From a virus: a stretch of 35,873 nt of DNA. The DNA is taken from positions 1-35,873 of IMG/VR virus record IMGVR_UViG_3300046734_000143, one strand, 5' to 3'. Below, in pieces: positions 3,187 to 35,873 of the stretch. The notes under the pieces were generated by a model, which did not search any database, was not told the DNA's origin, and saw only the letters and a program-made list of their open reading frames with translations. The first letter of the stretch is position 1, and the number at the start of each line of letters is the position of its first letter. The translations under genes and the position numbers were made by a program.

Positions 3187-3441
3187 TTACTCTGCGCTAG
3201 GATCAACCCAATCTGGGTTTTGCGTCCATGTAGTGCCGTCAAACGTGTATTTGTTGCCAATCCAATCAGAGCGAGTATTAGCTAGATTTTCATAAACTGT
3301 TGCGTTATCAGAATTTAAATCCCCAATAATGAACTTAGCAGGATCACCGACAACAACGTGGTCAGCGTTAAGGACAATCGTCACACCGTCTTCAAGCAGA
3401 TATTTCGACAGTCCTGTTGCGGTTTCTACAATAGTTTTCAT
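3187..3441 (-). CDS. Small tail-fibre-associated protein (conserved phage family)
   Basis: 84 residues starting MKTIVETATGLSKYLLEDG, with VVVGDPAKFIIGDLNSDNATVYENL and W-x-GNKYTFDGTTW near the end. This beta-rich layout (opening 'TGLSKYL', then 'IGDLNS', then 'KYTFDGTTW') recurs in small proteins that follow tail-fibre genes in many marine phages. It starts three bases after the tail-fibre stop, so it is probably an accessory or assembly partner of that fibre. The family resemblance is from memory; the exact role is unknown. Confidence 0.65.
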   Translation of the reverse strand: MKTIVETATGLSKYLLEDGVTIVLNADHVVVGDPAKFIIGDLNSDNATVYENLANTRSDWIGNKYTFDGTTWTQNPDWVDPSAE

Positions 3442-3444
3442 GTT

Positions 3445-5343
3445 TTACCCCTTAATAATAAGCTTGGTTGCTGATATGGCTGTTCCTGCAAATACTTCTG
3501 GCTCGGCGGCAGTCAAGCCAAGTGAGCCGTCAGCCTGTACATAATACTTTTGCCCTGCGGTTAAACTGCTCTGGGCGTCATCAACAGACCCTACGATCTG
3601 AATAGTTGCTGTCGCTGAATTAGAATAAGCCGCATCAGAAATTCCAATGTAGTTTTCAGAGGTTAGGTTTGTGTTTGAAAAAGCGGCTTGAAACACAACA
3701 GCAGTGCCGTAATGAGAATTGCCAGCGTCTTTATAAGCTATGACTACCTTCTGAGCGTTAGCATCGTAGGTAGCTGAAATATAATCAGTCCCCGCACTTT
3801 CAAATACAACCGGCGTGGTAAAGCTAATAGATGTGCCACTGACAGTTCCAACAACAACATAGCCATGATCAGAATTACCCTCGTCCCTATAAGCTATGAC
3901 TACCTTCTGGGCGTTAGCATCGTAAGCGGATGCCTTGGTTCCACTAAACGTGCTGTTAAATACTACTGGTGTACCAAAACTAATAGACGTACCACTAACA
4001 GTTCCAACAACAGCAGTGCCAGCATCAGAATTACCATTATCTTTATAACCTATAACTACCTTCTGAGCGTTGGAATCATAAGAAATTGAGAAATGACTAC
4101 TATACGCACTTTCAAATACCACTTCAGTACCAAAACTAATAGACGTACCACTAACAGTTCCAACAATAGCGGTTCCGTAACTAGAATTTGCACCATCTCT
4201 ATAAGCTATCACTACTTTCTGGGCGTTGGCATCATAAGCGATCTTCTTTTCGCGAGTACTCCCGCTGTTAAATATTGTGGTTGTTCCGAAACTAATAGAT
4301 GTTCCACTAACGGTTCCAACAAAAGCACCACCATTACCAGTAGGGTCGAACTGAAAAGCTATTACTACCTTCTGGGCGTTAGAGTCATAGGCAATTGATA
4401 TTTCTGAAGATGATGCACTTTCAAATACTACTGGTGTGCCAAAGCTAATTGATGTACCGCTAACGGTTCCAACAACAACAGTGCCATAATAATTATTACC
4501 AACGTCTTGATAAGCTATCACTACCTTTTGAGCGTTAGCATCATAAGCTATCGCTAAATGTTGAACATTCGTATTTTCAAATACTACTGGTGTGCCAAAG
4601 CTGATAGATGTGCCACTAACTGTGCCGACAACAGCCGTGCCATAATCAGAATTATCATCGTCTTCATACGTTATAATTATCTTTTGGGCGTTGGCATCAT
4701 AAACGCTTGCGGTATACTTAGTAGCGCCGCTTTCAAATACTGCTGGTGTACCAAGCGTCTGTGAGCCAGAAATCCCCGAAACAGCACTTACAGTGCCGTC
4801 ACTGTTTACGATAACCGTGTCACCGTTTGCTAAGGCTCCTGATGCTGTAGCGGTTACAGTAGGAGCCGCAGATAAATCTGTAATTTGACTTTGAGTAATT
4901 GATAAAGCCGCTTGATGTTGAGTAACAGAAGACTGTGTAATGTTTGCGTCAGGTACGTCAGCCCACGTTACAACAGCAGTAAGATCGTTTACTTCTGCAA
5001 TGCCCGGAATAGCACCAGCAACGTAATCAATAACTGCCGCATTAGTCGGTATTTGATTATCTACATCTGAAAAAGTCTCAGAAGATAGAGTAACTGCTCC
5101 AGCGTCAAGCTGAGAGAATGTAATACTAAGACCAGAAAGATTAACTGTACCTGTAGCAGTAAGGCCATCAAAAGTAGCTGTACCAGTAAACGTAGGACTA
5201 GCGAGGTCTGCCTTAGTTGCTACCGCAGTTTGAATTGCGTTAAATTCAGTATCAAACTCTGAGCCACGAATAACCTTATTAGCGTCACCCTGCGGCAAAG
5301 TGTCCTTAGCAGTAAAATTTGTAGATTTTACGTAATCAGTCAT
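3445..5343 (-). CDS. Tail fibre / receptor-binding protein with seven 52-residue repeats
   Basis: 632 residues. Residues 1-110 look like a podovirus tail-fibre N-terminus (FTAKDTLPQGDANKVIRGSE, then FDTEFNAIQTAVATKADLAS, TFTGTATFDGLTATGTVNLS). Residues ~203-560 are seven tandem repeats of about 52 residues with the core YDANAQKVVIAY-x-D-x-GNS-x-YGT and linker VGTVSGTSISFGTPVVF. The C-terminus (YYVQADGSLGLTAAEPEVFAGTAIS) resembles the 'reached this value on average, plus attribute' end domain of marine phage fibres. Seven beta-rich repeats of this length suggest a seven-bladed beta-propeller, a common carbohydrate-binding fold (inference). An AGGAT Shine-Dalgarno precedes ATG 5343; a terminator separates it from the capsid gene. 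Confidence 0.8.
   Translation of the reverse strand: MTDYVKSTNFTAKDTLPQGDANKVIRGSEFDTEFNAIQTAVATKADLASPTFTGTATFDGLTATGTVNLSGLSITFSQLDAGAVTLSSETFSDVDNQIPTNAAVIDYVAGAIPGIAEVNDLTAVVTWADVPDANITQSSVTQHQAALSITQSQITDLSAAPTVTATASGALANGDTVIVNSDGTVSAVSGISGSQTLGTPAVFESGATKYTASVYDANAQKIIITYEDDDNSDYGTAVVGTVSGTSISFGTPVVFENTNVQHLAIAYDANAQKVVIAYQDVGNNYYGTVVVGTVSGTSISFGTPVVFESASSSEISIAYDSNAQKVVIAFQFDPTGNGGAFVGTVSGTSISFGTTTIFNSGSTREKKIAYDANAQKVVIAYRDGANSSYGTAIVGTVSGTSISFGTEVVFESAYSSHFSISYDSNAQKVVIGYKDNGNSDAGTAVVGTVSGTSISFGTPVVFNSTFSGTKASAYDANAQKVVIAYRDEGNSDHGYVVVGTVSGTSISFTTPVVFESAGTDYISATYDANAQKVVIAYKDAGNSHYGTAVVFQAAFSNTNLTSENYIGISDAAYSNSATATIQIVGSVDDAQSSLTAGQKYYVQADGSLGLTAAEPEVFAGTAISATKLIIKG
3667..4737 (-). 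repeat. Seven tandem ~156 bp repeats inside the tail-fibre gene
   Basis: A repeat boundary reading 'tttcaaatac' or 'ttaaatac/ttaaatatt' recurs about every 156 bases (near 4731, 4573, 4420, 4267, 4110, 3955 and 3800). Each unit encodes one 52-residue repeat. Linker and core codons are nearly constant, while the stretches after VFES/VFNS and after the YKD/YRD core vary. The constant segments would support unequal crossing over and repeat-number change. Confidence 0.9.
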
Positions 5344-5391
5344 AAGGTCATCCTATTGTTCTTTTAGTTAAACACCCTGCACTCAAGACGT

Positions 5392-5421
5392 TTAAATAAA
5401 AAGGGGGCCATTGCGACCCCC
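5392..5421 (-). terminator. Rho-independent terminator after the major capsid gene
   Basis: On the minus strand, nine bases after the capsid stop, GGGGG (5421-5417) pairs with CCCCC (5407-5403) across a nine-base loop, and a T-rich tract (TTTTTATTT, 5402-5394) follows immediately. It should stop or attenuate transcription between capsid and tail-fibre genes. I see no convincing promoter between it and the tail-fibre start at 5343, so read-through probably feeds the downstream late genes. Confidence 0.8.
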
Positions 5422-5429
5422 ATAGAGTT

Positions 5430-6422
5430 TTACTCGTCAGCTACAGCGAGGATGAATCCTGCTTCCGGACGGTAAGTCTCAACACCGTACAGCGTGTCAG
5501 ACGTAAACAGTGTAGACAGGTATTCCTGCTTGTACTGAGTCTGAGAACGTACAGCGAGTTGCTCTGCCATTACCAACGCATCCTTGTGGAAGAACAAGCA
5601 ACCACGAGTGTCAAGGGCTGAAGCGCCGTTTTCACCGCCTGTTTCGATAACTGGACAGTTGCTAGACACGTAAATGTCTACGCCGTACAGGTTACCAATC
5701 AGACCTGACTCAACGCCACGGCCTCCAACAAAGTCGGAAGACACGTAACGCTCAATGCCCATGATTGACTTGCGTGACGCAGGAGGAATAACGAGAACTC
5801 GTCCGTCCATAGGTACGTCAGCATCGTCCATCAGCTTGATAGCCTCACGGAAACCAAGGTCAGTGAAGTTGTCACCAGTAGCTACAGTGTCAACAGCATA
5901 CGTAGAAAGGCCTGTGGCGGCGTTGAAGTAATAGCTGTTGCTGTTTACCCAGTTAGCACCAGTAGCGGCAGGAGAAGCGGTACGAGTACCGTTACCAAAG
6001 CCAGTAGCGGCGTTAATTAGGTCAGTGTCAACTTGCAGAGCCAGTTGGTAACCAGCGTCTTCAGTGTAGAACTGTCGCAGAGATGACAGAGCCTGTACCT
6101 CTACAATGTCCTCAATCAGACGCGAGTACTCAAAGTGACGGTCTACAGTGACAGTCAACTCTGTCTCAAGGTTAGCCTGAATAGTTACTGCGGTAGCTTC
6201 TGCTTTAGCATTAGCTGAACCACGGATAGGCTTAGGAATGTGAATAACGTCACCCTTCTTGCCGGTCATTGACAGACGCTTGACAAGGGGAGCCATCTTC
6301 AGGTTCTTTTGGTAAGCGGCGATGATTTCATCGGACCAAATTTCGGGGATAAAAGTACCCGCCGCAGTTTTGTCTACTACAGCATTAGCTGTAAAATATG
6401 CACCAGAGGTTTCACCAGCCAT
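5430..6422 (-). CDS. Major capsid protein
   Basis: 330 residues starting MAGETSGAYFTANAVVDKTA. The opening FIPEIWSDEIIAAYQKNLKMAPLVKRL and the following VIHIPKPIRGSANAKAEATAVT, then ETELTVTVDRHFEYSRLIEDI and DTDLINAA, fit the HK97-fold capsid proteins of marine podoviruses (N-arm, E-loop-like strand, spine helix). The length matches these proteins. A strong AAGGAG lies seven bases before the ATG. It follows the scaffold gene by 23 bases and precedes a strong terminator, consistent with high late expression from the promoter at 7793-7821. No Ig-like extension is seen. Confidence 0.88.
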   Translation of the reverse strand: MAGETSGAYFTANAVVDKTAAGTFIPEIWSDEIIAAYQKNLKMAPLVKRLSMTGKKGDVIHIPKPIRGSANAKAEATAVTIQANLETELTVTVDRHFEYSRLIEDIVEVQALSSLRQFYTEDAGYQLALQVDTDLINAATGFGNGTRTASPAATGANWVNSNSYYFNAATGLSTYAVDTVATGDNFTDLGFREAIKLMDDADVPMDGRVLVIPPASRKSIMGIERYVSSDFVGGRGVESGLIGNLYGVDIYVSSNCPVIETGGENGASALDTRGCLFFHKDALVMAEQLAVRSQTQYKQEYLSTLFTSDTLYGVETYRPEAGFILAVADE

Positions 6423-6445
6423 TTTAATTCTCCTTAAATGTTAGG

Positions 6446-7249
6446 CTAGCGTACACGACCCTCTGCGTATGCTTTCAGTAATTCGTCTGAAAGACTTTGG
6501 TAACGCTCTGGGTCTGTTCGCATAAGTTTAATAATGTCAGCACGACGATAAACTTTCTTGCGTGTCCCTTCTGCTGTTCCGCGAGCGTTGCCTGTGCTGG
6601 CTGACTTCAGAGTGTTCTTACGTGCCTGTTTTTCAACATTGGCAGTCTGCCGTACAACTGTTGCTCTCTCTTTCCAGAGGTTAAACAGTTCGTCAGCGGC
6701 ATCGTAGTCGTACCCTTGGTCTGCCTGAACAAACAACTGTGTTCGGACTTTTGACCCTTTGATCCACTCAGCAAACTTAGGATCTTTCAGTATACTCTCC
6801 ATTTCAGGGTGATTGGATTTCAACTGTGAAAGAGTAGCCTGTTGTTTTGCTTGTTGTGTGTAAGCTTGCGCTTCTTTAATCTTAGGGTGGTTATCTATAG
6901 CTCTGTTAACAGCGTTCTGTGGATCTACAAAGAAATCTACGTCATCGTCTTCTTGTTGCTGTTGTTGAGGTGCTGGTTGGTTTGAGAGTTCTGTCTGAAT
7001 GTAGTTATCAACGACCTTTCGTAACTCACCAACTTCCGTACTCTGTTTGCCAGAGAACTTCTCTAGCTCTTGGTGCATCTGTACGAGGTCTTCGACAGAT
7101 TTACCTTGGTACTTTTCTGGAAGATCAGCTACTGCTTCTTGAGGTTGTTCCTCTTCTTGAGGAGTCTCTACAGTGTCTGCGGTTAGTTCTTTAGTTTCTT
7201 CCGTTGCTTCTTCTTCTGGACGCTCATCAAGTAATTGTGCTCGTGACAT
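6446..7249 (-). CDS. Scaffolding protein
   Basis: 267 residues. The first ~75 residues are very acidic (EEEATEETKEL, EEEQPQEAVADLPEKYQGKS), followed by a Gln-rich helical middle (QQQQQEDDDVDFFVDPQNAV) and a basic C-terminal helical end (RKKVYRRADIIKLM). An acidic, coiled-coil protein with a basic C-terminal helix directly upstream of the capsid gene is the standard picture of a podovirus scaffold that guides procapsid assembly and then leaves. The motif YQGKSVEDLVQMHQELEKF is typical of this family in marine phages. No protease domain is visible. Confidence 0.82.
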   Translation of the reverse strand: MSRAQLLDERPEEEATEETKELTADTVETPQEEEQPQEAVADLPEKYQGKSVEDLVQMHQELEKFSGKQSTEVGELRKVVDNYIQTELSNQPAPQQQQQEDDDVDFFVDPQNAVNRAIDNHPKIKEAQAYTQQAKQQATLSQLKSNHPEMESILKDPKFAEWIKGSKVRTQLFVQADQGYDYDAADELFNLWKERATVVRQTANVEKQARKNTLKSASTGNARGTAEGTRKKVYRRADIIKLMRTDPERYQSLSDELLKAYAEGRVR

Positions 7250-7312
7250 AATATAAACTTACCCCGCCTGTTATTAAGGTTATGGAGGATTAAAATAGGA
7301 AGTGACCTAGAA

Positions 7313-7534
7313 CTAGGGTTCCCGATTAGATCGCCCAGCGTTCTCACGTTCGCGTACCCACTTCATGTGTCTGCCGGGGAAATCCCCAGATGCACCGTCG
7401 AGTATGTGTTGAGTTGCTGAAACGATTTTTGTAGCGTTAGCTCCACAACCGCACCTACTGGTTGTAGTACCTTCTTCTACAAATTCTTCAAAGATATGTC
7501 CGTTAGTACATTTAAAATCAAATACTTTAATCAT
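7313..7534 (-). CDS. Small zinc-ribbon protein (FmdB-like)
   Basis: 73 residues from ATG 7534 (a GTG one codon upstream is possible). The start IKVFDFKCTNGHIFEEFV and the second knuckle CGCGANATKIV resemble FmdB-type regulatory zinc ribbons, with ligands in C-x3-H and C-x-C arrangement rather than two CxxC pairs. The remainder is basic (GRHMKWVRERENAGRSN). The start overlaps the upstream stop by eight bases, so it is coupled. Such proteins are frequent beside phage capsid genes; the function is unproven. Confidence 0.7.
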   Translation of the reverse strand: MIKVFDFKCTNGHIFEEFVEEGTTTSRCGCGANATKIVSATQHILDGASGDFPGRHMKWVRERENAGRSNREP

Positions 7535-7772
7535 CACTAACTAGCTCTTCGTAATTGTTGTTAGTAGTTGTCTCAAAGTTGAGAACATACGCTAGTACGT
7601 TTAGTTGTCCTTTACGTACATACAAATCGTTCTCATCTTTAGTTGCTTCTACACTGTTGATTACAAGAGCGTTCTGTTGTAGTTCTTCGATTAACTGCTT
7701 CCAACCGGGGTTGTTAAACAGGTCAAAGTACTTATTGTAATACTGTTCTGTTTCTTGATCTAGTGAGGCCAT
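7527..7772 (-). CDS. Conserved small phage protein of unknown function
   Basis: 81 residues (MASLDQETEQYYNKYFDLFN). Aromatic-rich and helical N-terminal half (NPGWKQLIEELQQNALVINS), then a segment (LYVRKGQLNVLAYVLNFE) with an acidic end. It is the first gene downstream of the sigma70 promoter at 7793-7821 and has only a weak Shine-Dalgarno, with a leader of roughly 15 bases. Similar proteins sit upstream of the scaffold gene in other marine podoviruses as I remember them; no function is known to me. Confidence 0.65.
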   Translation of the reverse strand: MASLDQETEQYYNKYFDLFNNPGWKQLIEELQQNALVINSVEATKDENDLYVRKGQLNVLAYVLNFETTTNNNYEELVSDD

Positions 7773-7792
7773 AAGGTTGTCTCTATATCCTT

Positions 7793-7821
7793 ATTATAAC
7801 ATATTTTTGACTAAAAGTCAA
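7793..7821 (-). promoter_or_regulatory. Sigma70-type promoter for the scaffold/capsid cassette, with a palindrome over the -35
   Basis: Read on the minus strand: TTGACT (7821-7816), a 17-base spacer, and TATAAT (7798-7793), about 20 bases upstream of the gene starting at 7772. The -35 element is half of the palindrome TTGACT-AAA-AGTCAA at 7807-7821, a possible operator. The -35 flank closely matches the late promoter at 13473-13501. Confidence 0.85.
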
Positions 7822-7840
7822 GTATTATTTATGGGTATTA

Positions 7841-7990
7841 TTACCGCTTCTTTTTGGCTGTTTTAGCGGCCTTTTTGAAGGCTTTTGCTGTAGGAGCGCC
7901 CCTTGATCCGGGTTTACGCATCTTTTCACCAGATCCTGCGGCAATCCTTTTGCGTTTAGCGTGAATATTGCTGTATAATCCCCTAGGCAT
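7841..7990 (-). CDS. Tiny basic phage protein (49 residues)
   Basis: ATG 7990 to TAA 7841, starting MPRGLYSNIHAKRKRIAAGS and ending in a Lys/Ala-rich helix (AAKTAKKKR). About a third of the residues are Lys or Arg. Its ATG overlaps the stop of the upstream gene by one base (TGATG), indicating coupled translation. I recognise this opening (MPRGLY-x-NIHAKRKRIAAGSGE) from short proteins near portal/scaffold genes of marine phages. Nucleic-acid binding or a minor head role is plausible but unproven. Confidence 0.75.
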   Translation of the reverse strand: MPRGLYSNIHAKRKRIAAGSGEKMRKPGSRGAPTAKAFKKAAKTAKKKR

Positions 7991-8106
7991 CACATAGACC
8001 TACGAGCGCCTGTTTTGCGCTTTGGCTTAACTGCAACTTTCTTTTTCTTTTTAGCTTTCGGGGGTCTTCCTACCTTACTTCCGTATGTTCCGGGTCCCAT
8101 CGGCAT
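7990..8106 (-). CDS. Tiny Lys-rich phage protein (38 residues)
   Basis: ATG 8106 to TGA 7990, starting MPMGPGTYGSKVGRPPKAKK followed by a run of lysines and an Arg-rich end. The MPMG-x-GTYG-x-KVGRPPK opening is a recurrent micro-protein pattern in phage head-gene clusters; the GRP triplet is AT-hook-like. A good AAGGAG lies seven bases before the start, and the stop overlaps the next ATG. Function unknown; DNA binding is an inference from charge and GRP. Confidence 0.75.
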   Translation of the reverse strand: MPMGPGTYGSKVGRPPKAKKKKKVAVKPKRKTGARRSM

Positions 8107-8116
8107 AATTATCTCC

Positions 8117-8404
8117 TTACCATTTAACTTTGTTTGCCCAATAAGCCGCAGAGCATTTGCCCTTGGCTATGTTTTTAGCGTGACGAGCCTTAAAGGACTT
8201 ACGCCTCGCTTTTTCTTTAGCAGTCTTAGGACTTTTTCCAGCACCACTAACTCCTTGTTGTCCAAATCGTATAGTCTTAACCTTACCGTCATCACACTTA
8301 GCCACAACTACGTGCGACTTCGTAGGGTGATTAGGCGTCCTCTTTGGCTTGTTGTACCCGCTTACCCCTGCCCGTGCTAGCCTTGGGTCCTTTTCCTTTG
8401 GCAT
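8117..8404 (-). CDS. Conserved basic protein downstream of the portal
   Basis: 95 residues (MPKEKDPRLARAGVSGYNKP). It is very basic, with a middle KTIRFGQQGVSGAGKSPKTA and an end RKSFKARHAKNIAKGKCSAA, then YWANKVKW. I recognise this as a small conserved phage family (RFGQQG...RR-x-SF-x-ARH-x-KNI) found with head genes; role unknown. Its ATG shares one base with the portal stop (TAATG at 8402-8406), so it is coupled to portal translation. Confidence 0.8.
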   Translation of the reverse strand: MPKEKDPRLARAGVSGYNKPKRTPNHPTKSHVVVAKCDDGKVKTIRFGQQGVSGAGKSPKTAKEKARRKSFKARHAKNIAKGKCSAAYWANKVKW

Positions 8405-8555
8405 TAGGTTGTTCCTCCTTCTGGCGCTGGGCCAACACTTGGTCCTCTAGGTCCTTGACTTTGGCCTCCAGTTGGTCTAATCGGTTGAACTGGTCGCTGA
8501 ACGCTTGGTTGATCTGGTCTAGAAACTTGGTCATTTCGGTTTGTGTCATTAGCAT
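8331..8555 (-). CDS. Overlapping coiled-coil protein read in another frame across the portal end
   Basis: 74 residues from ATG 8555 (a second ATG is two codons in). The N-terminal 45 residues form a convincing coiled coil (FLDQINQAFSDQFNRLDQLE, AKVKDLEDQVLAQRQ), followed by a basic low-complexity tail (AKGKGPKASTGRGKRVQQAK). It overlaps the last 152 bases of the portal gene and the first 74 bases of the next gene. In the overlap the portal frame encodes a low-complexity Pro/Gln/Arg tail, as if this frame were the one under selection. An AAGGA stands about ten bases before the ATG. Short coiled-coil proteins near portals are common, but no function is known. Confidence 0.55.
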   Translation of the reverse strand: MLMTQTEMTKFLDQINQAFSDQFNRLDQLEAKVKDLEDQVLAQRQKEEQPNAKGKGPKASTGRGKRVQQAKEDA

Positions 8556-10458
8556 TAGGACGTTTTCCTTCTATTTGCCTTTCTTTTAGTAGGGCGTCTG
8601 CCACTTTTAAGCGGCGCTGAAACTCCTTGTCTTCTTGATCCCCTTCCTTGAGATTCCTTGTAATTGCTTCCAGCTTTTCAATTTGTAACTCTTCTGGTAG
8701 CAACTGTGTTTCCATTTCGTACTTAGACGCTCTGGCTTGCGATTCAGCGGCTTGTGCGGCAAGGGCGGCAGTTTGACTCTGCTGAAACTCCATCTGAGTC
8801 TGTTGAGCCATCTGAGCCATCTGCTGTGCTTCAGGATTGGGCTGTCCCGCTTGTTGCATAGTCGCAATGAGTTCCTCACGGTTACTGAGGTTCATGTTGT
8901 CGATAATGCTCTGGATAAGCACAGGGTACAGTGGGCTATCTTGCTTCATAGTCTGTAAGAGTTGCACCAACTGAGTAACCTCGTACTCACGAGCAACGAT
9001 ACCTAGAGTACTCGTAGCATTGAACTTATAGTCAGCTACGGGGTAAGACTCAGGATCAAACTGCATGTACCTGTGTGCCGCTTTGGTTACAAACGGGAGT
9101 AGGAACGACTGTTGGAAGTTAATCAGAGTGCGCTTATGACGTTTGATAATAGCGCCAAGAGACATACTTATGCCTGCGGCTGTGGCTTCTCCGTTAACCT
9201 GTCCAGCAATACCGGCAGAGTCAACGGCTCCTGTAGCTTGCTGTACCATTTGCTGAAGCGATGCGGCTTGTGCAAAAGTAATTTGACCAACTTGTCCAAA
9301 GTTAAACGGTTGAAGCACTTCACGAGGATCTCCGTTAGTTAGGATCATCTTTCCGGGGCGTACTTCTGGTTTAGCCCCACGAGGAAGCCGTGTAGCGTCG
9401 ATAGCGAGCATTGGGTGAATCGTGAGGCTCAGTGCATCAATACGTGCTCGTAGCTCTGTATCAAGCGCCTTCTGGCTGTTGTAGCCCTTCTCACAAACAC
9501 CACGGCCCCAGAAGCGTCCGGGTACTACATCCCAAGGGAACGCAACAACAGGACGATCATTCATCATGTACGGGTTAGCTTCGGCCTTTAAAAGCGTACC
9601 ACCGTTGGCAACAACTACGATAGCCTCTACGTACTTAGATTCTTCTTCTACGTCTACGCCTTCGTTCTCAAGTAACTCACGAGGCACTAGACCGTAGTAC
9701 TTAGTCAGGCGTACCTTATCGTCGTTGTAGATCGTGAGGTCTTGGTCAGGCTCTAGGTCTGCGTCAGGTGCGGCAGACTCAATGAGAGCATCGTTGTATA
9801 CACCCTGCTCCTGTAGTATCTCTACGCTGTGCTTAGACACAAACTCATCAATAGCCACACCCATAGCGTCATCTACTGATGTAGCTACAGGGTCTATCAG
9901 GAAGTTCTGAGGCAACACAGGCTTTAGCTTGACTACAACCCTGTCTGTAATGTTAACACCCACGGCGGTCAACTGTCCGTCCATGATGGGCTGTGTAGCC
10001 GGGGCCATCTCTTTAATTTCTTCTAGAGTAATCTCACCGATTCCTGTACCAAAGACGGCAGAGTTAATCAAGCACTCAGCAACAGCCTTACGAATTTTGC
10101 AGGCCTCAAAGTCTTCAGACAGTTTCTTGCGGAGGTACGCTATGTCCTGATTGTCTTGATCGTTAACATCGTCAGTAATGTCGAACCACTTACCTCTACC
10201 AAACGTGGCCTCTTCTAGTTCTGCTACGTTAGACTCTACAGCCTGCTGAAGCGCAGGAGAGATAATGCGAGAACGCTCTGACGCTCTTTCGGAGTCAGCA
10301 GGGTCCCATTGACCTCGCCATAGCCTATAGTATTCTTCAAATTTTTCTTCGTAGTTGGATTCATAGTGATCTCTCCAGTTTTCACACTTAGTCATCACCC
10401 ACTCTTCCAAAGACTCCTCAATCATCAGAGGGTCTTGGCTATAGATTTCTTCTGCCAT
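8404..10458 (-). CDS. Portal (head-tail connector) protein
   Basis: 684 residues. It begins MAEEIYSQDPLMIEESLEEW, followed by YEEYYRLWRG-type sequence, SERSRIISPALQQAVESNVA and FGRGKWFDI. Later come GRGVCEKGYNSQKALDTELR, RIDALSLTIHPMLAIDATRL and the long helical GQVNGEATAAGISMSLGAII, all typical of marine podovirus portals. The last 150 residues are a Gln-rich coiled coil and a Pro-rich tail. Portal dodecamers form the DNA entry channel and dock terminase. AAGGA precedes ATG 10458. It sits after terminase and before the small basic genes, as expected. The 3' end is overlapped by a second reading frame (8331-8555). Confidence 0.88.
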   Translation of the reverse strand: MAEEIYSQDPLMIEESLEEWVMTKCENWRDHYESNYEEKFEEYYRLWRGQWDPADSERASERSRIISPALQQAVESNVAELEEATFGRGKWFDITDDVNDQDNQDIAYLRKKLSEDFEACKIRKAVAECLINSAVFGTGIGEITLEEIKEMAPATQPIMDGQLTAVGVNITDRVVVKLKPVLPQNFLIDPVATSVDDAMGVAIDEFVSKHSVEILQEQGVYNDALIESAAPDADLEPDQDLTIYNDDKVRLTKYYGLVPRELLENEGVDVEEESKYVEAIVVVANGGTLLKAEANPYMMNDRPVVAFPWDVVPGRFWGRGVCEKGYNSQKALDTELRARIDALSLTIHPMLAIDATRLPRGAKPEVRPGKMILTNGDPREVLQPFNFGQVGQITFAQAASLQQMVQQATGAVDSAGIAGQVNGEATAAGISMSLGAIIKRHKRTLINFQQSFLLPFVTKAAHRYMQFDPESYPVADYKFNATSTLGIVAREYEVTQLVQLLQTMKQDSPLYPVLIQSIIDNMNLSNREELIATMQQAGQPNPEAQQMAQMAQQTQMEFQQSQTAALAAQAAESQARASKYEMETQLLPEELQIEKLEAITRNLKEGDQEDKEFQRRLKVADALLKERQIEGKRPNANDTNRNDQVSRPDQPSVQRPVQPIRPTGGQSQGPRGPSVGPAPEGGTT

Positions 10459-10468
10459 CTTAGGTTCC

Positions 10469-10603
10469 TTAAATCACAGCAACACAGTACCCTAGTGTAA
10501 AAAACACTACAGCACTGATTGCGTATATTCCGTAGGTATTAAAAGGTCTGAAAACTTTATTATTAGAAAACCCTTTTGTAAACTCTTTCCAAAACAAACT
10601 CAT
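10469..10603 (-). CDS. Small single-pass membrane protein between terminase and portal
   Basis: 44 residues from ATG 10603 (MSLFWKEFTKGFSNNKVFRP), with a C-terminal hydrophobic helix at about residues 24-44 (YGIYAISAVVFFTLGYCVAV). The ATG lies one base after the large-terminase stop and the TAA is ten bases before the portal start, filling the gap neatly. The basic N-terminus would stay in the cytoplasm. No function is recognised; a lysis or membrane accessory role is possible. Confidence 0.6.
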   Translation of the reverse strand: MSLFWKEFTKGFSNNKVFRPFNTYGIYAISAVVFFTLGYCVAVI

Positions 10604-10604
10604 G

Positions 10605-11855
10605 TTAGTACCCTGCTACTACATCTAGTATTTCGTGATCGTCGATTTCGTAGTCGTAACTGTACGCTACTTTAGCTAACTGGTCTATGTACGCCAAGGC
10701 GTCAACTAAGTCATCGTGGGTCAGTGGGTCTGGAAACTGAAACAGTTGGTCTAAGAATCTGTTGTTCCACTCACCCTTGTTAATAGCTACGTAACCGTTT
10801 TCAAAGCGTCCCTGTAGCGCCCACATAACCCTGTCAGTCTTTTTCTTGTTACCGTGGGTTAACTCTTCGACGCGAAAGAACGTTCCGTACCGCTTCTGTA
10901 AGTCCGTGAGGGGACTCATGACCGCTTGCTTTGCTATTCCTCTTTCAATACCAACGCTAATGGGTCTGTAGTCTCTAACGGCCTGAAATATCTTGGCGGC
11001 AGTCTCGTCAAGGCTCCACCGCCCATGTATAATGTTATCAACGTACCAACCATCAGGACTAACTTTAACAACAGCGATTGCAGTTTCATCTAGTTTTGTG
11101 TTCTTCGTCCGTTTCTTGTTTACTTCTTCAAAACCAGCCAAGTCAACAGCTATGTAGTAGTCTCCAATCTCTGGCTCTTCTCCGTAGTGTACCCAATCTT
11201 CTTTGAACATTTCAGAGCCTCTTGCTTCAAACGAGGCCATAAACTCTTGTCGGAAGGCGTAACTCGACATTGACTTCTTTGCCGTATCAATTTCTTCAGG
11301 GTCGAGGATGGGGTTGTCATAACTGGTAAAGTGCCACCCCTTGTAAGTTTCATCGTCCCCTAGCTCCGCAAGTTTGTACAGTTCGTAGAAGTGGTTCCTT
11401 CCCATAGGCGTACCTATGAACATCGCTGATCCCTTTTGGTCAGCTAGTGCTGGACGGAGGATTTGCTCCCATACGTCAGGCTTCATGTCTGCGTACTCGT
11501 CCATCACGAGAAACTTCAAGGACACACCACGCATTGTCTCAGGCCTGTCGGCTCCCTTGAGACTAATCGTGGCCCCGTTGACCAGCTTGATCTGCAAGTT
11601 ATTAATGTGTGAACCCGCAATCACAGGGTGTCCTAGCTCCATAAGGGTTTGCCACATGATATCACGGGCTTGCCCTTGGGTGGGCGCAACGTAAAAAACT
11701 TGACCTTTATCGGTCTGTAGGGCGTTAATAATTAACATCCAAGCGGCTAGGCGAGACTTCCCTGTCCTTCGCCCAGCGGCTACTACTTTGAACCTAGTGG
11801 TATCAGAGTAGACTTCTTGTTGCCACGGTAGTAGCTGTACGTTTAAGTCGGTCAA
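10605..11855 (-). CDS. terL: Terminase large subunit (packaging ATPase-nuclease)
   Basis: 416 residues from a TTG start (TTGACCGAC; AAGG upstream; the next in-frame ATG would remove Walker A). The ATPase part has Walker A AAGRRTGKS (residues 26-34) and Walker B FLVMDE (115-120, catalytic Glu 120), with the coupling segment FIGTPMGRNHFYELY. The RNase H-like nuclease has Asp 238 (YYIAVDLAG), Glu 304 (VGIERG) and the DDLVDALAY pair near 381-382. All catalytic residues are present. It packages DNA through the portal. The family is somewhat short, close to T7-like/marine podovirus enzymes. The upstream gene encodes a secreted protein rather than the small subunit, which lies four genes earlier. 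Confidence 0.93.
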   Translation of the reverse strand: MTDLNVQLLPWQQEVYSDTTRFKVVAAGRRTGKSRLAAWMLIINALQTDKGQVFYVAPTQGQARDIMWQTLMELGHPVIAGSHINNLQIKLVNGATISLKGADRPETMRGVSLKFLVMDEYADMKPDVWEQILRPALADQKGSAMFIGTPMGRNHFYELYKLAELGDDETYKGWHFTSYDNPILDPEEIDTAKKSMSSYAFRQEFMASFEARGSEMFKEDWVHYGEEPEIGDYYIAVDLAGFEEVNKKRTKNTKLDETAIAVVKVSPDGWYVDNIIHGRWSLDETAAKIFQAVRDYRPISVGIERGIAKQAVMSPLTDLQKRYGTFFRVEELTHGNKKKTDRVMWALQGRFENGYVAINKGEWNNRFLDQLFQFPDPLTHDDLVDALAYIDQLAKVAYSYDYEIDDHEILDVVAGY

Positions 11856-24493: not shown

Positions 24494-26359
24494 ATGGACG
24501 CATACCAACAGTACATACACAAGTCACGGTACGCCCGTTACCTTCCAAAAGAGAAGCGCAGGGAGACTTGGGAAGAGACAGTCAACCGCTACATCAACTT
24601 TTGGGGCGATGATCTGCCAGAGACTGCACGTAAGGAGGTTTATGAGTCTGTACACAATCTAGACGTAATGCCATCCATGCGAGCACTGATGACCGCAGGA
24701 GAGGCGCTAGAGCGTGACAACGTAGCGGGGTTTAACTGTAGCTATCTGCCTATAGACCACCCCAAAGCATTTGATGAAATGATGTACGTGCTCATGTGTG
24801 GCACAGGCGTAGGCTTCAGCGTTGAGCGTCAGTACGTACAAAAACTACCGGAGGTTGCGGAGGAGTTCCATGGAACAGATACAGTTATCAATGTTGCAGA
24901 TTCGAAAATCGGATGGGCGAAATCGTTTAGGGAGTTGGTATCACTGCTGTATTCAGGTCAAGTTCCCCGATGGGACGTTAGTCGAGTACGATCTGCAGGT
25001 TCCCCGCTTAAAACTTTCGGAGGTCGTGCAAGTGGCCCTGAACCTCTCGTCGAGTTGTTCCGATTCACGGTGGACTTGTTTCGGGAAGCTTCTGGACGAA
25101 AACTTAGCTCCATTGAGTGTCACGATCTTTGCTGTAAGATTGCTCAAATCGTCGTTGTCGGAGGAGTCAGACGAAGCGCCCTCATCAGCCTCTCAAACCT
25201 GACAGATGACAGGCTACGCCGTTGTAAGCACGGGCAGTGGTGGGACGAAAATCCCCAGCGTGGTCTGGCGAATAACTCTGCGTGTTACACAGAGAAGCCC
25301 GACTTTGAAGCCTTTTTAAACGAATGGACAAGCTTATATGAATCACGATCTGGTGAACGAGGTGTCTTTAGCAGAGTGGCAAGTCAAAAGCAAGCTTCAA
25401 GAAATGAACGAAGAGATGCTACCTTTGATTTCGGAACTAATCCATGTAGTGAAATCATCCTCAGACCCTACCAGTTCTGCAATCTTTCAGAAGTTGTTGT
25501 TAGGCCACAAGATACACTCTCAAGCCTCAAACGAAAAGTTCGGATTGCGACTATCCTTGGGACTCTTCAGGCTACCCTCACAGACTTCCGATACCTCAGA
25601 AATATTTGGAGAGTAAACACGGAAGAAGAGGCGCTACTAGGCGTATCTCTGACGGGTATTATGGATCATCCGTTACTATCAGGACGGGAAGACAAGGCAA
25701 AGCTGAAGAAGTGGCTTACGGAGATGCGTAATGAAGCTATCGTTACTAACGAGCAATGGGCTAAGAGATTGGGCATTAAGCCGTCTGTCGCAATTACTGC
25801 GGTTAAGCCTTCTGGTACTGTTAGTCAGTTGGTCGATTCTGCTAGTGGGATTCACCCTCGCTACAGCAATCAATACATTAGACGAGTCCGTGCTGACTCT
25901 CGTGACCCACTTTGTGGGGTCTTAGAGGCCGCAGGAGTCCCTGTGGAGGACGATCTAATGTCCCCTAGTACACGGGTATTCTCCTTTCCTATCGCGTCTC
26001 CTGAAGGCGCTGTGACAGCCTCAGACATGGGTGCTATGGAGCAGTTAGATCTGTGGGAGATATATCAGGACTACTGGTGTGAACACAAGCCGTCTATGAC
26101 TTGCTACTACCGTGATGAGGAGTTTCTAGAGGTGGGCCAGTGGCTGTACAACAAGTTTGACAAGGTATCTGGAATTTCCTTCCTGCCCTACTCAGACCAC
26201 AGCTATGCTCAGGCTCCTTATGAACCTGTGGACAAGAAAACGTACAACCAGCTTGCTAAGGACTTTCCAAAGGAAATATCGTGGGATATAGAAGAGGCCA
26301 GCGATATGACTGAGGGGTCACAACAACTGGCCTGCACGGGGAATAACTGTGAACTATAA
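24494..26359 (+). CDS. nrdJ: Class II (adenosylcobalamin-dependent) ribonucleotide reductase, monomeric
   Basis: 621 residues with AGGAG ten bases before the ATG. Disulfide/redox cysteines Cys 82 (FNCSY) and Cys 329 (QFCNLSEV); thiyl cysteine Cys 318 within FGTNPCSEI (Asn 316, Glu 320); conserved TAVKPSGTVSQL phosphate site; and the C-terminal reducing pair Cys 614/619 (ACTGNNCEL). This is the Lactobacillus leichmannii RTPR type, using coenzyme B12 and reducing nucleoside triphosphates, without a separate small subunit. It is shorter than RTPR (739). It supplies dNTPs for replication and needs host cobalamin. Two tracts (about 24880-25200 and 25321-25620) use a different set of Leu and Arg codons. 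Confidence 0.93.
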   Translation: MDAYQQYIHKSRYARYLPKEKRRETWEETVNRYINFWGDDLPETARKEVYESVHNLDVMPSMRALMTAGEALERDNVAGFNCSYLPIDHPKAFDEMMYVLMCGTGVGFSVERQYVQKLPEVAEEFHGTDTVINVADSKIGWAKSFRELVSLLYSGQVPRWDVSRVRSAGSPLKTFGGRASGPEPLVELFRFTVDLFREASGRKLSSIECHDLCCKIAQIVVVGGVRRSALISLSNLTDDRLRRCKHGQWWDENPQRGLANNSACYTEKPDFEAFLNEWTSLYESRSGERGVFSRVASQKQASRNERRDATFDFGTNPCSEIILRPYQFCNLSEVVVRPQDTLSSLKRKVRIATILGTLQATLTDFRYLRNIWRVNTEEEALLGVSLTGIMDHPLLSGREDKAKLKKWLTEMRNEAIVTNEQWAKRLGIKPSVAITAVKPSGTVSQLVDSASGIHPRYSNQYIRRVRADSRDPLCGVLEAAGVPVEDDLMSPSTRVFSFPIASPEGAVTASDMGAMEQLDLWEIYQDYWCEHKPSMTCYYRDEEFLEVGQWLYNKFDKVSGISFLPYSDHSYAQAPYEPVDKKTYNQLAKDFPKEISWDIEEASDMTEGSQQLACTGNNCEL

Positions 26360-32437: not shown

Positions 32438-33961
32438 TCATAGCGTTTTACCTATCAGTGCTAATACGTTCATCTCTTGGATGGATAGTGCGTAACCATT
32501 TATGTCTGTTTCTAGGCCCACAGTAATCACTGAGCCGTACCCCGTAGTGTTAATAGAAGACCTATTAATTGTAATAGCTTCCTCAGAGTACTCAGCAAGG
32601 GTATATTCAGACTGCCCGTAAAAACCCGGAATAGCACTGCTTGTCCTATATGAACTAGTACTAGGTGCTGTAGAAAAATCATAAGACCATTTAAGAAAAA
32701 TGTCTGCGTTGTTACCGCCTATTAACGTAGGCCGTATCTTTTTTAACATTTTAATTTTAGACGGATCACCAAAAGACAACGCAGGACTAGAGTACCTAAA
32801 GCGGTATACAGATCCAGCGTCTGTGTAACCGGAGTAAACGCCTAAGCCGTCTGTAGTTCCTATATAAACATCTCCGTTTCTGTCTCTATGAAAACTCTTG
32901 AAGTCTACACTAGGCCATCGTGTTACCCTGTACGCTCCGTTTTCTAAAGTAGTCCTTACATCAAAACAGTACACGAGGTTAAGATTAGGAAAGCACAGAA
33001 GATAAAAGTAGTTCTCAGGGCTATACACCGTACTCACTGGTTCTGTTTTCCCCAGCGTGTTAGCAATTAGTTCCTGCTTAATGTTTCTGCTCAAGTCAGT
33101 AATAGGCAGGGACTTCTCTTGTATAGCGCGTCCCAAGCTCCTAAGACCTGTTTGAGTCAAGAACAGTAAGTCTGTTCCTATGTTCTGTACACTCTTTCTG
33201 TCTACGCAACCCACACCCGGAATTGTATCCTGTAGCACCATAGACGCGGGACTATCAGCACCGCTATAAACAATTGTGTTATTCTCACCAAAGACCACGA
33301 GTAGCCCGTTGTGAGCCGCTAAAGCTACAACCTTATCAAACCCGTTAGGCCACGCTTTAGATACATCAATAGAACCGCTAGAACCACTAGTAAAATTGTG
33401 TCCTATCAGAAGATCCGACCAGTAGATCGTGTTGTCATCAGTAGCGTTACCTACGCACCATACGCGCCCGTAAGCACCGATAGCCTCGTGAGAGTACTGA
33501 TTAGCTGTTACGTGTGCGCCACCGACAGCAGACATTTTAGTTACTACACCAAGACTGTTGCTGTACACAAGAGGCTCGTAGCCACGCTGGAAGAAGTAAG
33601 CATGATCGTTAAAGTTAAATATCTTCCAATCGTTAGCACTAATCGTGTACGACCCCGGCGTAGCGTCAGCCAGAGTAGTTGTACCTGTCATAATCTTGTT
33701 GTTACCAGTACTAAATATTACCTCGTTACCAGCAGTGTCATAGAACTCGTGTATGTTGTGAAGGTAGTCAGTACCTAACACGGTTTTGTTTGTGGTAGAA
33801 ACAGTATTACCTTTGCGAGACGCTAGGCGTCCACCTCTGTCAATAATAGCGTTATCTGCAACATCTGCAAAAGACGTATCTTGAGCTAGTGGAGAATCCT
33901 CTGTGTTGATCCCTTTAAACGCAGGAGCAACTAAGTTAATACTTTGTAGTGGCTGTGCCAT
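32438..33961 (-). CDS. Tail tubular / stabilisation protein (T7 gp12-like candidate)
   Basis: 507 residues of mostly beta structure. N-terminus LVAPAFKGINTEDSPLAQDT with FADVADNAIIDRGGRLASRK is characteristic of the podovirus nozzle/stabilisation proteins. The middle contains repeated strands around AAHNGLLVVFGENNTIVYSG, DRKSVQNIGTDLLFLTQTGL and RNGDVYIGTTDGLGVYSGYT, consistent with a beta-propeller. The gene follows the gp11-like gene, as gp12 follows gp11 in T7, and AGGAG precedes ATG 33961. It likely forms the lower tail tube through which DNA leaves. Confidence 0.78.
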   Translation of the reverse strand: MAQPLQSINLVAPAFKGINTEDSPLAQDTSFADVADNAIIDRGGRLASRKGNTVSTTNKTVLGTDYLHNIHEFYDTAGNEVIFSTGNNKIMTGTTTLADATPGSYTISANDWKIFNFNDHAYFFQRGYEPLVYSNSLGVVTKMSAVGGAHVTANQYSHEAIGAYGRVWCVGNATDDNTIYWSDLLIGHNFTSGSSGSIDVSKAWPNGFDKVVALAAHNGLLVVFGENNTIVYSGADSPASMVLQDTIPGVGCVDRKSVQNIGTDLLFLTQTGLRSLGRAIQEKSLPITDLSRNIKQELIANTLGKTEPVSTVYSPENYFYLLCFPNLNLVYCFDVRTTLENGAYRVTRWPSVDFKSFHRDRNGDVYIGTTDGLGVYSGYTDAGSVYRFRYSSPALSFGDPSKIKMLKKIRPTLIGGNNADIFLKWSYDFSTAPSTSSYRTSSAIPGFYGQSEYTLAEYSEEAITINRSSINTTGYGSVITVGLETDINGYALSIQEMNVLALIGKTL

Positions 33962-33969
33962 ACGTACTC

Positions 33970-34617
33970 CTACGGGGTATAAAAGATAGTTTCTTCAGGA
34001 TGCTTCTGTGCGTCCATAGCGATAGCATCAGACAGATACTTATCAGCAATAGCAAAGTACTCTGGAGTCGATGTACCGCCTGTCTCACCACGCTCACGGG
34101 CCAATAGAGCTACTGACATGTGAATCACAGGCTGACTAGGAATAGCCAGCGTGTCAAAGTCAGCACTTAAGGCTACGTTCCTTATGACGCTCTTGACCTT
34201 GATAGAGTACACACCGTCAGGCTTAGGGTACACATCAATCTGTGCGTCACCGGAGCCGTCTATGCCACTGAACGTGTAGTACTGAGGTTTGCCAGAGGTG
34301 GGCGTGTTGACAAAAAACTTATCGTCAAACCAAGTCTGCGGTCTGTACTCCATTACAAGATTAGACGTATCGTTAATGATATTAAGAATCTTGCCTTGAT
34401 CTTGGTAGCCCGTAAGCGAGTACGTGTAGTCATCAGCCGCCGTGGTCAGCGTAAGGGTAGACCTAAGATTAGACCAATCCCAAGCGTTTTCCACGAGTTG
34501 CTTTGCGTCATTGATAAAGTCACCAACCATAGTACTGTACGTATTAGCGCTAACGGTAGTTACTTCGTCCTCACGTAAACGTCTAAGAACATTGTTTACT
34601 ATGTCTAAATAGGTCAT
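33970..34617 (-). CDS. Tail tubular / adaptor protein (T7 gp11-like candidate)
   Basis: 215 residues: TYLDIVNNVLRRLREDEVTT, then GDFINDAKQLVENAWDWSNL (a helix typical of the portal-docking adaptor), strands TYSLTGYQDQGKILNIINDT, PQYYTFSGIDGSGDAQIDVY and the C-terminal helix HMSVALLARERGETGG. This sequence of features is the podovirus adaptor (gatekeeper) that binds under the portal. ATG overlaps the stop of the giant cysteine-rich gene (ATGA). Eight bases separate it from the gp12-like gene. Confidence 0.8.
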   Translation of the reverse strand: MTYLDIVNNVLRRLREDEVTTVSANTYSTMVGDFINDAKQLVENAWDWSNLRSTLTLTTAADDYTYSLTGYQDQGKILNIINDTSNLVMEYRPQTWFDDKFFVNTPTSGKPQYYTFSGIDGSGDAQIDVYPKPDGVYSIKVKSVIRNVALSADFDTLAIPSQPVIHMSVALLARERGETGGTSTPEYFAIADKYLSDAIAMDAQKHPEETIFYTP

Positions 34618-35873
34618 ACCATACCCTCAAACAAACTTCTTTTAATTAGGCTGTCTAGTTCTGCCATATAGTCTTTTTGTGGTGCTGGAGGAGCCGCTGG
34701 CAAAGGCTGGGGCGTGTAATCTATGCCAGCAATGAAAGGACTAAAGGCTCCCATACCACCACCACCGCCGCCACCGCCGCCACCGCCGGTACTACCTCCA
34801 CCGCCGCCTCCACCGGGACATTCTTCAGGATTAGCCGCCGCATACTCAGCACAGCTACAGTCGTTACATGTTGTTGTAATACAGTTACCTTCCGCGTCCA
34901 TTGATTGACCTTCAGGACACACAGTACAATCGGGGTAATCTGTGGCTCCGTTTTCACAGGCTGTTTCTTCACACTCGTCTCTAGTGGGAGCAAACGTACC
35001 ATTAGGACACTCTATCCAGCCGCACTCTAAAGGATTAGCCGTGGCATACTCTATATCATTACAGGGTGTAGGCTGGTTACAGTCTGCCAACGTAGGAGCC
35101 ATAGTCCCGTCATCACACTCTACCCAACCACAGATTAAAGCATTGGCAGGATCAGTGCAATCTATTCCTTCACACATGTCAGTTTCAGAATTTAAACTCT
35201 GACCTGAAGGACACGTAACGCAGTTGTTCTCAGGATCAATAGCACCGTTGGCGCAGTCGTTAAACACACACTCGCCTTCTTGTCCAGCGTTTGTGGCGTA
35301 AGGGTTGTCACAGATCTGTGTTGTGCTACATCGTTCATCATCTGGATAATCACGACAGTAATCAGTCAGAGTCAAACACTTACCAGTTTCTTGGTCAGGA
35401 ATGAAATTAGCTTTACACTGACACCCACCTTGACCATCTGGTTCAGAGTTAGGATCATCACAGCTTGTTTCTCCAGAAACACACTCACCACGGTCATTGA
35501 ACACACCTTCCCCGTTTTCACCACAAGGCTTTCCTGAATCAAGATAAGGCTTATTGCAGTCTCCGTCTTCGTGGAAGGATGGAATAGTAAGGTAACCCGG
35601 ACACTGAACACAATCAGGAGCTACCGCATTGTTGTGGGGACACTCTGTTGTATTATTGTCTTGAGTACAAACGGTGTCGCCTTGTTTAATACTGTAATTT
35701 TCTACGCAGTCTGGGCCACAGTCTCCGTCTTCACCGTAATTAGTAGAAAACTCGTCTTCACACTTAGTAGGAGTAGTTCCGTCCCCGCCGCGAGTACAAA
35801 AACCTTCAGAGTTAATATTACCTTGGGCTATAGTTGCGTCATCGCCGCTGTACTTCCCCGGCTCAGAAAAACA
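34614..35873 (-). CDS. Giant cysteine-rich virion/adhesion-like protein, C-terminal part (gene begins at 2158)
   Basis: This is the C-terminal third of the 1,096-residue protein, entering from the right edge in frame (unique sequence ends at 35746). The last 296 residues hold about 29 cysteines. A module is duplicated: ICGWVECDDGTMAPTLADC and ECGWIECPNGTFAPTRDEC. A second short module recurs as C-x2-C-P-x-GQS. After the last cysteine comes a poly-glycine stretch (about 34750-34816) and a short C-terminal tail with Pro-rich and helical parts ending FEGMV. The stop overlaps the next gene's ATG (ATGA at 34614-34617), so the two are translationally coupled. No start codon exists in this frame upstream of 35504, so this is not a separate gene. 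Confidence 0.85.
   Translation of the reverse strand, partial: CFSEPGKYSGDDATIAQGNINSEGFCTRGGDGTTPTKCEDEFSTNYGEDGDCGPDCVENYSIKQGDTVCTQDNNTTECPHNNAVAPDCVQCPGYLTIPSFHEDGDCNKPYLDSGKPCGENGEGVFNDRGECVSGETSCDDPNSEPDGQGGCQCKANFIPDQETGKCLTLTDYCRDYPDDERCSTTQICDNPYATNAGQEGECVFNDCANGAIDPENNCVTCPSGQSLNSETDMCEGIDCTDPANALICGWVECDDGTMAPTLADCNQPTPCNDIEYATANPLECGWIECPNGTFAPTRDECEETACENGATDYPDCTVCPEGQSMDAEGNCITTTCNDCSCAEYAAANPEECPGGGGGGGSTGGGGGGGGGGGMGAFSPFIAGIDYTPQPLPAAPPAPQKDYMAELDSLIKRSLFEGMV
35747..35873. repeat. Terminal direct repeat, right copy
   Basis: Exact second copy of positions 1-127. Removing it gives a 35,746 bp circle. The leftward cysteine-rich frame is open through this copy (no stop between 35504 and the window edge) and matches in phase the frame that begins at 2158. 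Confidence 0.95.

Follow-up and report, generated by a model that had tools for sequence, protein, structure and literature searches.

The window analysed here, a viral record of 35,873 bases taken at its full length, carries on its minus strand a gene whose product contains seven tandem repeat units, and it raises the question of what structure such an array forms, which part of the virus bears it, and by what route it comes to differ between related viruses. The open reading frame (3445..5343, (-); 632 aa by translation) is intact with the seven units inside it, and the gene is real. The array occupies residues 192-552 (window 3688-4770) and is made up, all on the minus strand, of unit 1 (residues 192-241, 4621..4770), unit 2 (residues 242-293, 4465..4620), unit 3 (residues 294-344, 4312..4464), unit 4 (residues 345-396, 4156..4311), unit 5 (residues 397-448, 4000..4155), unit 6 (residues 449-500, 3844..3999) and unit 7 (residues 501-552, 3688..3843), with lengths of 50, 52, 51, 52, 52, 52 and ~52 residues; its Tandem Repeats Finder score of 753-881 is far above chance. 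An earlier note on this DNA had described seven near-identical 52-residue repeats at 3667-4737. The units are indeed seven, but they are not near-identical, since pairwise identity among units 2-7 is 53-73% in protein and 58-76% in DNA (mean identity among all seven is 0.629, with some pairs down to 53%), and the span then given was shifted by 20-30 bases, which clips the shorter first unit. The core and linker taken to be constant are so in part, the exact string YDANAQKVVIAY being present in 4/7 units and VGTVSGTSISFGT in 5/6 unit junctions. The idea of constant DNA segments fails, because the longest exact match between any two window units is 29 bases and the codons for a shared residue agree in 420 of 671 comparisons (63%, where 38% is expected from codon usage). 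The window units have a common origin. Pfam and PHROGs leave the protein unnamed, PHROGs returning three weak families of unknown function only; Pfam matches to Cyclophil_like2 (1.3e-10, over a 35-residue stretch), to DUF1923 and to weaker entries disagree with the structural model and were judged to be chance matches to the repeats.

The number of units is informative about the fold, because a solenoid or a stalk would tolerate any number of repeats, while a number fixed at seven or its multiples points to a closed ring. All open reading frames of the window and of 158 loci from two scans of viral contigs were searched with a profile of the unit; the loci were picked by similarity to the window protein, the best 80 per scan, and the frequencies given here are those of this selection and not of populations. 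The count, which leaves out exact duplicates and frames that run off a contig but retains near-identical frames, gives exactly 7 units in 104 of 129 complete distinct frames and exactly 14 in a further 19, the latter being seven plus seven with a linker. The remaining six have 3, 5, 6, 6, 8 and 11 units, numbers that look like the result of missed or spurious weak units; the 8-unit frame consists of seven strong units and one at 6 bits. AlphaFold2, given 45 aligned sequences, predicts a closed ring of blades with about four strands each (pLDDT ~95 over residues 160-630; residues 1-158 are without a confident model), and the ring aligns to solved rings over residues 193-558. The best PDB match found by Foldseek is 8q82, the PLL4 lectin (E 1.4e-9, TM 0.81 by target length), after which come further PLL lectins and many sialidases; among the families that VIA-align lists, others being possible, are YncE (Z 32.2, 2.6 A over 307 residues) and PLL4 (Z 31.3, 2.5 A over 312 residues). 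Identities in the first 50 rows of structural matches from the two programs are 6-14%, and a phmmer search of all PDB chains returned nothing at E up to 1, so that no solved lectin is related by this measure; the likeness to YncE and PLL is a sharing of fold and does not prove kinship or function. Unit counts, predicted ring and structural neighbours together support the conclusion that the window protein forms a seven-bladed beta-propeller, as the earlier note had proposed, and structure prediction, the means suggested for checking it, did not yield a non-propeller fold. The predicted order of strands, judged from the first strand of the array (GTPAVF) and its last three, suggests that this first strand completes the last blade, which is the usual closure. 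For a 14-unit relative two confident propellers are predicted with a weak linker between them, and the pTM of 0.49 leaves their mutual orientation unfixed.

The ring appears to sit within a larger modular protein. Residues 160-191 (4771..4866, (-)) and 553-632 (3448..3687, (-)) flank it and are predicted with confidence as strands, and both co-occur in relatives, where the first stretch is conserved and the second is found in 184 open reading frames, 181 of which also have the propeller. We read these as the two halves of one base domain, which would pack together with the propeller between them. Ahead of the base domain lie a putative stem or linker (residues 76-159, 4867..5118, (-); pLDDT <50 up to residue 158) and the N-terminal attachment part (residues 1-75, 5119..5343, (-)), which is common to fibres with other tips: it recurs in 84 frames, and among the 72 of these that are complete at the 3' end, 12 carry the propeller and 60 another C-terminal part. 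Some fibres (L029:1093-3894, L049:6001-11106, L033:5974-9054 and L042:1111-6183) join the N-terminus of the window fibre to another propeller-like repeat family with Lactonase and SGL Pfam matches, which gp51 of the Lentibacter phage vB_LenP_ICBM2 resembles by eye. The N-terminus used alone as a query gave no match among phage records, and the array alone no relative among genome contigs; the alignment used as a query found six MAG contigs (L160-L165) in the genome-contig search, which may be viral sequence. On L162 a single 2353-aa frame (3906-10964) has 28 units, or four times seven; this contig is binned as an archaeon, and it may be phage sequence within the archaeal bin. Two to four propeller genes are present in 50 of the 89 loci that have such a gene of at least five units, and in multi-propeller loci (e.g. 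L101, L103, L104, L107 and L114) a small MKTI... gene often stands between or after them.

The setting of the gene is that of a phage tail fibre. The structural genes of the window (terminase, portal, capsid) match known phage families; the nearest capsid proteins are <60% identical to its own, and the DNA polymerase in phage records that comes closest to the window's, at 49.5% identity, belongs to Pelagibacter phage HTVC103P. The fibre gene directly follows the major capsid protein gene (5430..6422, (-); phrog_267 major head protein, PF19821), which marks the fibre slot in relatives. Capsid-gene DNA at least 80% identical, with a reading frame after it, was found in 62 loci, a number that includes fragments and duplicate contigs; the slot holds the present propeller family in eight of them (L001, L003, L005, L006, L007, L011, L096 and L173, of which L005 and L173 are the same contig), and the six other slot genes that were scanned each have matches to PHROGs whose names are tail fibre, spike or tail. 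Among slot genes, that of L196 has a Peptidase_S74 domain and that of L200 collagen, and those of L029 and L049 belong to the different propeller family recognized by its Lactonase and SGL matches. A small companion gene of 84 aa (3187..3441, (-)) adjoins the window fibre and shares 43% identity with the beginning of ICBM2 gp48, which ends in the tail assembly chaperone domain PF16778; this domain also lies near the fibres of L008 and L039, and Pfam does not find it in the window's companion gene. The ICBM2 homologue of the fibre itself, gp49, sits away from the capsid gene, with genes annotated tail fibre and tail fibre assembly on its two sides; the authors of that genome call the region variable and assign to it genes for tail fibres, connectors or assembly proteins (PMC6775973). 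An N-terminal part and a gene slot common to tail fibres, together with a fibre-assembly partner gene nearby, strongly indicate from sequence comparison that the window protein is a tail fibre tip, and in this the earlier note appears to have been right.

The positions at which the blades vary were located in 714 units from the 102 proteins that could be cleanly segmented into seven units. Entropy peaks at the D-A loop together with the first residues of strand A (columns 23-27) and at the B-C loop and its edges (columns 43, 45 and 49), which bears out the expectation that variation would lie mainly in two loops per unit. A beta-propeller has its D-A and B-C loops on one face and its A-B and C-D loops on the other. 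Mean entropy is 2.35 bits in top-face columns as against 1.29 in bottom-face columns (p 0.0007). The columns were defined, with the entropies already known, by DSSP plus two flanking residues, which makes the p values descriptive. In a high-identity group of 11 proteins whose blades are ~80% identical (from L083, L085, L088, L089, L090, L092, L093 and L095), columns 25, 23, 45, 49, 26 and 43 stand out at 3.5 to 2.0 bits, the next column having 1.04. Nine loop columns of this group have pN 0.36, which exceeds pS at 0.21, while the framework has pN 0.056 and pS 0.30. Such an excess of pN at variable columns occurs only among the blades of the 11-protein group; in five ortholog pairs the variable-column pN/pS is <1, yet pN there exceeds the framework value by a factor of 2.2 to 5. 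By topology the chain ends exit from the opposite face, and the variable face would accordingly point away from the base.

A protein of this form could play other roles than that of a receptor-binding tip, and the evidence on its setting and variation bears on each of them. An enzyme carried on the fibre, sialidase-like or a polysaccharide lyase rather than a pure binder, is brought to mind by the many sialidases listed by Foldseek and by the virginiamycin lyase and rhamnose-glucuronate lyase listed by VIA-align; but the polar residues that are invariant in 45 relatives (D268, D423, T348, T396, T400 and S450) belong to the framework and recur in every blade instead of marking a unique site, and the loops of one face are hypervariable, so that we give this reading only a small probability. 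The place of the gene directly after the capsid gene would suit a capsid decoration that aids sticking to surfaces, though this is made improbable by the tail-fibre families, Peptidase_S74 and collagen that fill the same slot in relatives, and by the position of the ICBM2 homologue within a tail-fibre cluster away from the capsid gene. That the propeller is a structural hub with no binding role, like the podovirus tail nozzle (T7 gp12, SU10), has a precedent in the SU10 nozzle protein, which contains a seven-bladed propeller (PMC9509320). Such a hub would hardly share its N-terminus with fibres, be present in two to four gene copies (50/89 loci) or be replaced whole between constant flanks, and the window has a better nozzle candidate in the gene at 32438-33961, which matches the head-closure connector phrog_578 and the amidase-named phrog_5107; this possibility is accordingly very slight. 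The tail-fibre reading, under which the propeller would bind a receptor or glycan, is the one that we carry forward.

If the propeller is the binding head of a fibre, the manner in which heads come to differ can be sought by comparing genes whose flanks are alike. Pairs among the 102 seven-unit proteins were retained when 250 bases on each side of the propeller aligned at >=90% identity. Of the 32 gene pairs that pass on both flanks, 27 have propellers that are just 50-86% identical in DNA, and the identities fall into separate ranges, namely 50-57% (12 pairs), 67-68% (4), 82-86% (11) and >99.5% (5), with none between 86 and 99.5%. Border profiles, which cover 12 chosen pairs in each of two comparisons, have identity breaking at the propeller borders in 12/12: it is 84-100% in the bin that spans 90 to 45 bases ahead of the propeller, falls to 33-58% over the first 45 propeller bases (with the exception of the L085/L089 pair, at 78%), and is back to 84-100% in the bin 90-135 bases beyond its end. 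The comparison of L137 with L112, loci with two propellers, illustrates the pattern, the DNA being 95.2% identical over the 2413 bases leading to one propeller, 96.0% over the 601 bases separating the two and 92.9% over 325 bases beyond, with just short stretches of the propeller interiors aligning, at 67-76%. The converse arrangement is also found: 68 pairs among 192 propellers are >=88% identical over 900 bases, and 6 of these lie between flanks that are 54-62% identical, which amounts to two events once duplicate contigs are merged; in one of the events a propeller of L133 is matched by the first of the two propellers that L128 and L129 carry in a single gene. Because synonymous sites diverge along with the others, selection on residues alone cannot explain these patterns, and replacement of the propeller by recombination can. 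The comparison of relatives for block exchange that the earlier note had recommended thus came out in favour of it, and these data support the view that in relatives whole propellers have been exchanged between conserved flanks.

The scale of this exchange differs from what had been proposed, namely that constant DNA within the array lets loops shuffle by recombination without a diversity-generating retroelement. Recombination and the lack of a retroelement both find support, while shuffling within the array is not seen in the window, the DNA not being constant, only one exact blade copy having been found in 102 proteins and the closest strain being unchanged at the hypervariable residues that can be compared. 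That copy, blades 2 and 6 of L085:3761-5335 (identical over 165 nt), is a sign that blades or loops can be shuffled inside an array, and a test on 14 proteins, mostly with near-identical blades, points the same way, for the inner blades 2-6 have as their best DNA match in another protein the same-number blade in 20-42 of 182 cases per blade, where chance gives 26, as compared with 130 and 140 of 182 for blades 1 and 7. Blades 1 and 7, however, have special end sequences that raise their score; just 3 within-protein blade pairs in the 102 proteins reach 93% DNA identity, two of them being the same propeller on two contigs, only 3 off-position pairs between proteins do so, and the window has no such pair. 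Single-blade copying is rare, and as the main source of the variation shuffling of blades or loops is unlikely, though it deserves to be kept in mind. The rewriting of loops by a retroelement was suspected from codon patterns, since the high-identity group (55 inner blades) has variable codons mostly of the form NNT, NNC or NNG, whose third base changes little, and pN exceeds pS at those codons. Third bases are constant in 235 of 274 variable and in 2091 of 2527 framework codons, however, and so are no more constant where variation is found; a search for RVT_1 had no match in 40 records including the window, many of them short fragments for which a negative carries little weight, and was positive in 3 of 14 control genomes; and the closest strain is unchanged at 35 variable residues. 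The retroelement, whose absence the earlier note had assumed, was dropped on these three grounds as extremely improbable. The mosaic pattern might also be an artefact. All contigs are metagenome assemblies, in which chimeras are possible, and this is the chief weakness of the case for exchange; tandem genes in one genome share flanks (the N-flanks of two L089 genes are 99.2% identical), which can mislead short-read assembly into joining the conserved flanks of tandem paralogues to the wrong propellers. Against this, the same arrangement is found in contigs of different data sets (L112/L113, L114/L115, L095/L097 and L128/L129), the breaks fall at domain borders in all 12 chosen pairs, and flank identity is often <100%, which leaves distinguishing positions; we regard an artefact of this kind as quite improbable.

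The window's own lineage is a separate matter. The closest strain, L001, has capsid-gene DNA 98.5% identical to that of the window, and its propeller differs at 14 residues, of which none is among the 35 hypervariable residues that can be compared. The loop change between strains that the earlier note anticipated is therefore not seen in this lineage; the lack of hypervariable change is within chance, and there is no sign of rapid change. In L003 and L005, whose capsid-gene DNA is 90-95% identical to the window's, the propellers are 50-55% identical to that of the window, but divergence extends to the adjoining fibre DNA, which is 65-69% identical (60-70% in seven loci compared), and for this reason the comparison does not demonstrate block exchange in the window lineage. 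That the window propeller itself arrived by exchange is plausible.

We consider it probable that the gene encodes a modular tail-fibre protein with a seven-bladed propeller head, one face of which is variable, and that in relatives this head is replaced as a block. The N-terminal attachment part and stem would carry the small base domain, and a complete propeller would be inserted between its two halves, with the variable D-A and B-C loop residues on the face opposite to that where the chain enters and leaves; this face would be the one to meet the host surface, where its most likely partner is a glycan. In related phages the entire propeller (~1.1 kb) is replaced as a single block, for which the conserved halves and the adjoining DNA probably provide the homology arms, and at times it moves to a neighbouring gene slot, so that an exchange may change the host surface to which the virus sticks. 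A broader proposal, to which we assign somewhat less than an even chance, is that in widespread phages the split base domain is a standard socket for any complete seven-bladed propeller, and that heads are swapped whole between phages and between sockets. If this is true, a genome would have between one and four of these genes, some of which hold two propellers, and hosts would be confronted with a combinatorial set of variable, lectin-like heads, each blade contributing about six hypervariable residues to a single face.

Neither the receptor-binding proteins of phages nor propeller lectins are new in themselves, and comparison with them helps to define what is particular to the present family. 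One counterpart is gp49 of ICBM2 (Zobellviridae, Cobavirinae), which aligns over both base halves and the propeller (25% identity, E 3e-19), adjoins a homologue of the companion gene and lies in a tail-fibre cluster; unlike the window fibre it has a different N-terminus and far more diverged blades, of which the unit profile finds 4, and it is annotated as hypothetical. The PLL / PHL lectins of Photorhabdus share the seven-bladed ring and include the best Foldseek match (Z ~30-31 over 311-317 residues), but they are bacterial lectins and not phage fibres, with 6-9% identity in VIA-align and no sequence match in the PDB. Propellers are known in phage adhesins or baseplates from phi11 gp45, PRD1 P2 and PhiKZ gp131C; those of phi11 and PRD1 have five blades as compared with seven here, and the available portion of the source reports no block exchange of propellers (PMC4901313). 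The window's mean blade identity of 63% lies within the class of highly repetitive beta-propellers, defined by blades >60% identical and with viral members; the work on that class deals with amplification from single blades, whereas in relatives of the window whole rings are exchanged (Pereira and Lupas 2022, PMC9218822). Exchange of phage host-recognition modules is known (PMC10579305), as is population-level variation at host-recognition genes in metaviromic islands (PMC3909814), but as far as the available text of these sources goes the exchanges concern modules, genes or regions, and in the present relatives one domain is replaced inside a conserved gene. The literature searched, which covered few subscription papers and no preprints, gave no description of this propeller family or of whole-propeller exchange between conserved flanks, and to that extent a phage family with units in multiples of seven, one hypervariable face and replacement of the whole propeller would be new. 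The exact borders and the cultured relative ICBM2 make it testable whether this one domain governs adsorption, and genes without a name in Pfam and PHROGs would thereby gain a function.

Two further genes of the window may be mentioned. A cysteine-rich protein without a Pfam match is encoded at 34614-35504 (-), and its glycine-rich stretch is coded by a tandem repeat of CCACCGCCG at 34755-34815; the gene at 24494-26359 (+) encodes a ribonucleotide reductase with a B12-dependent class II insertion domain.
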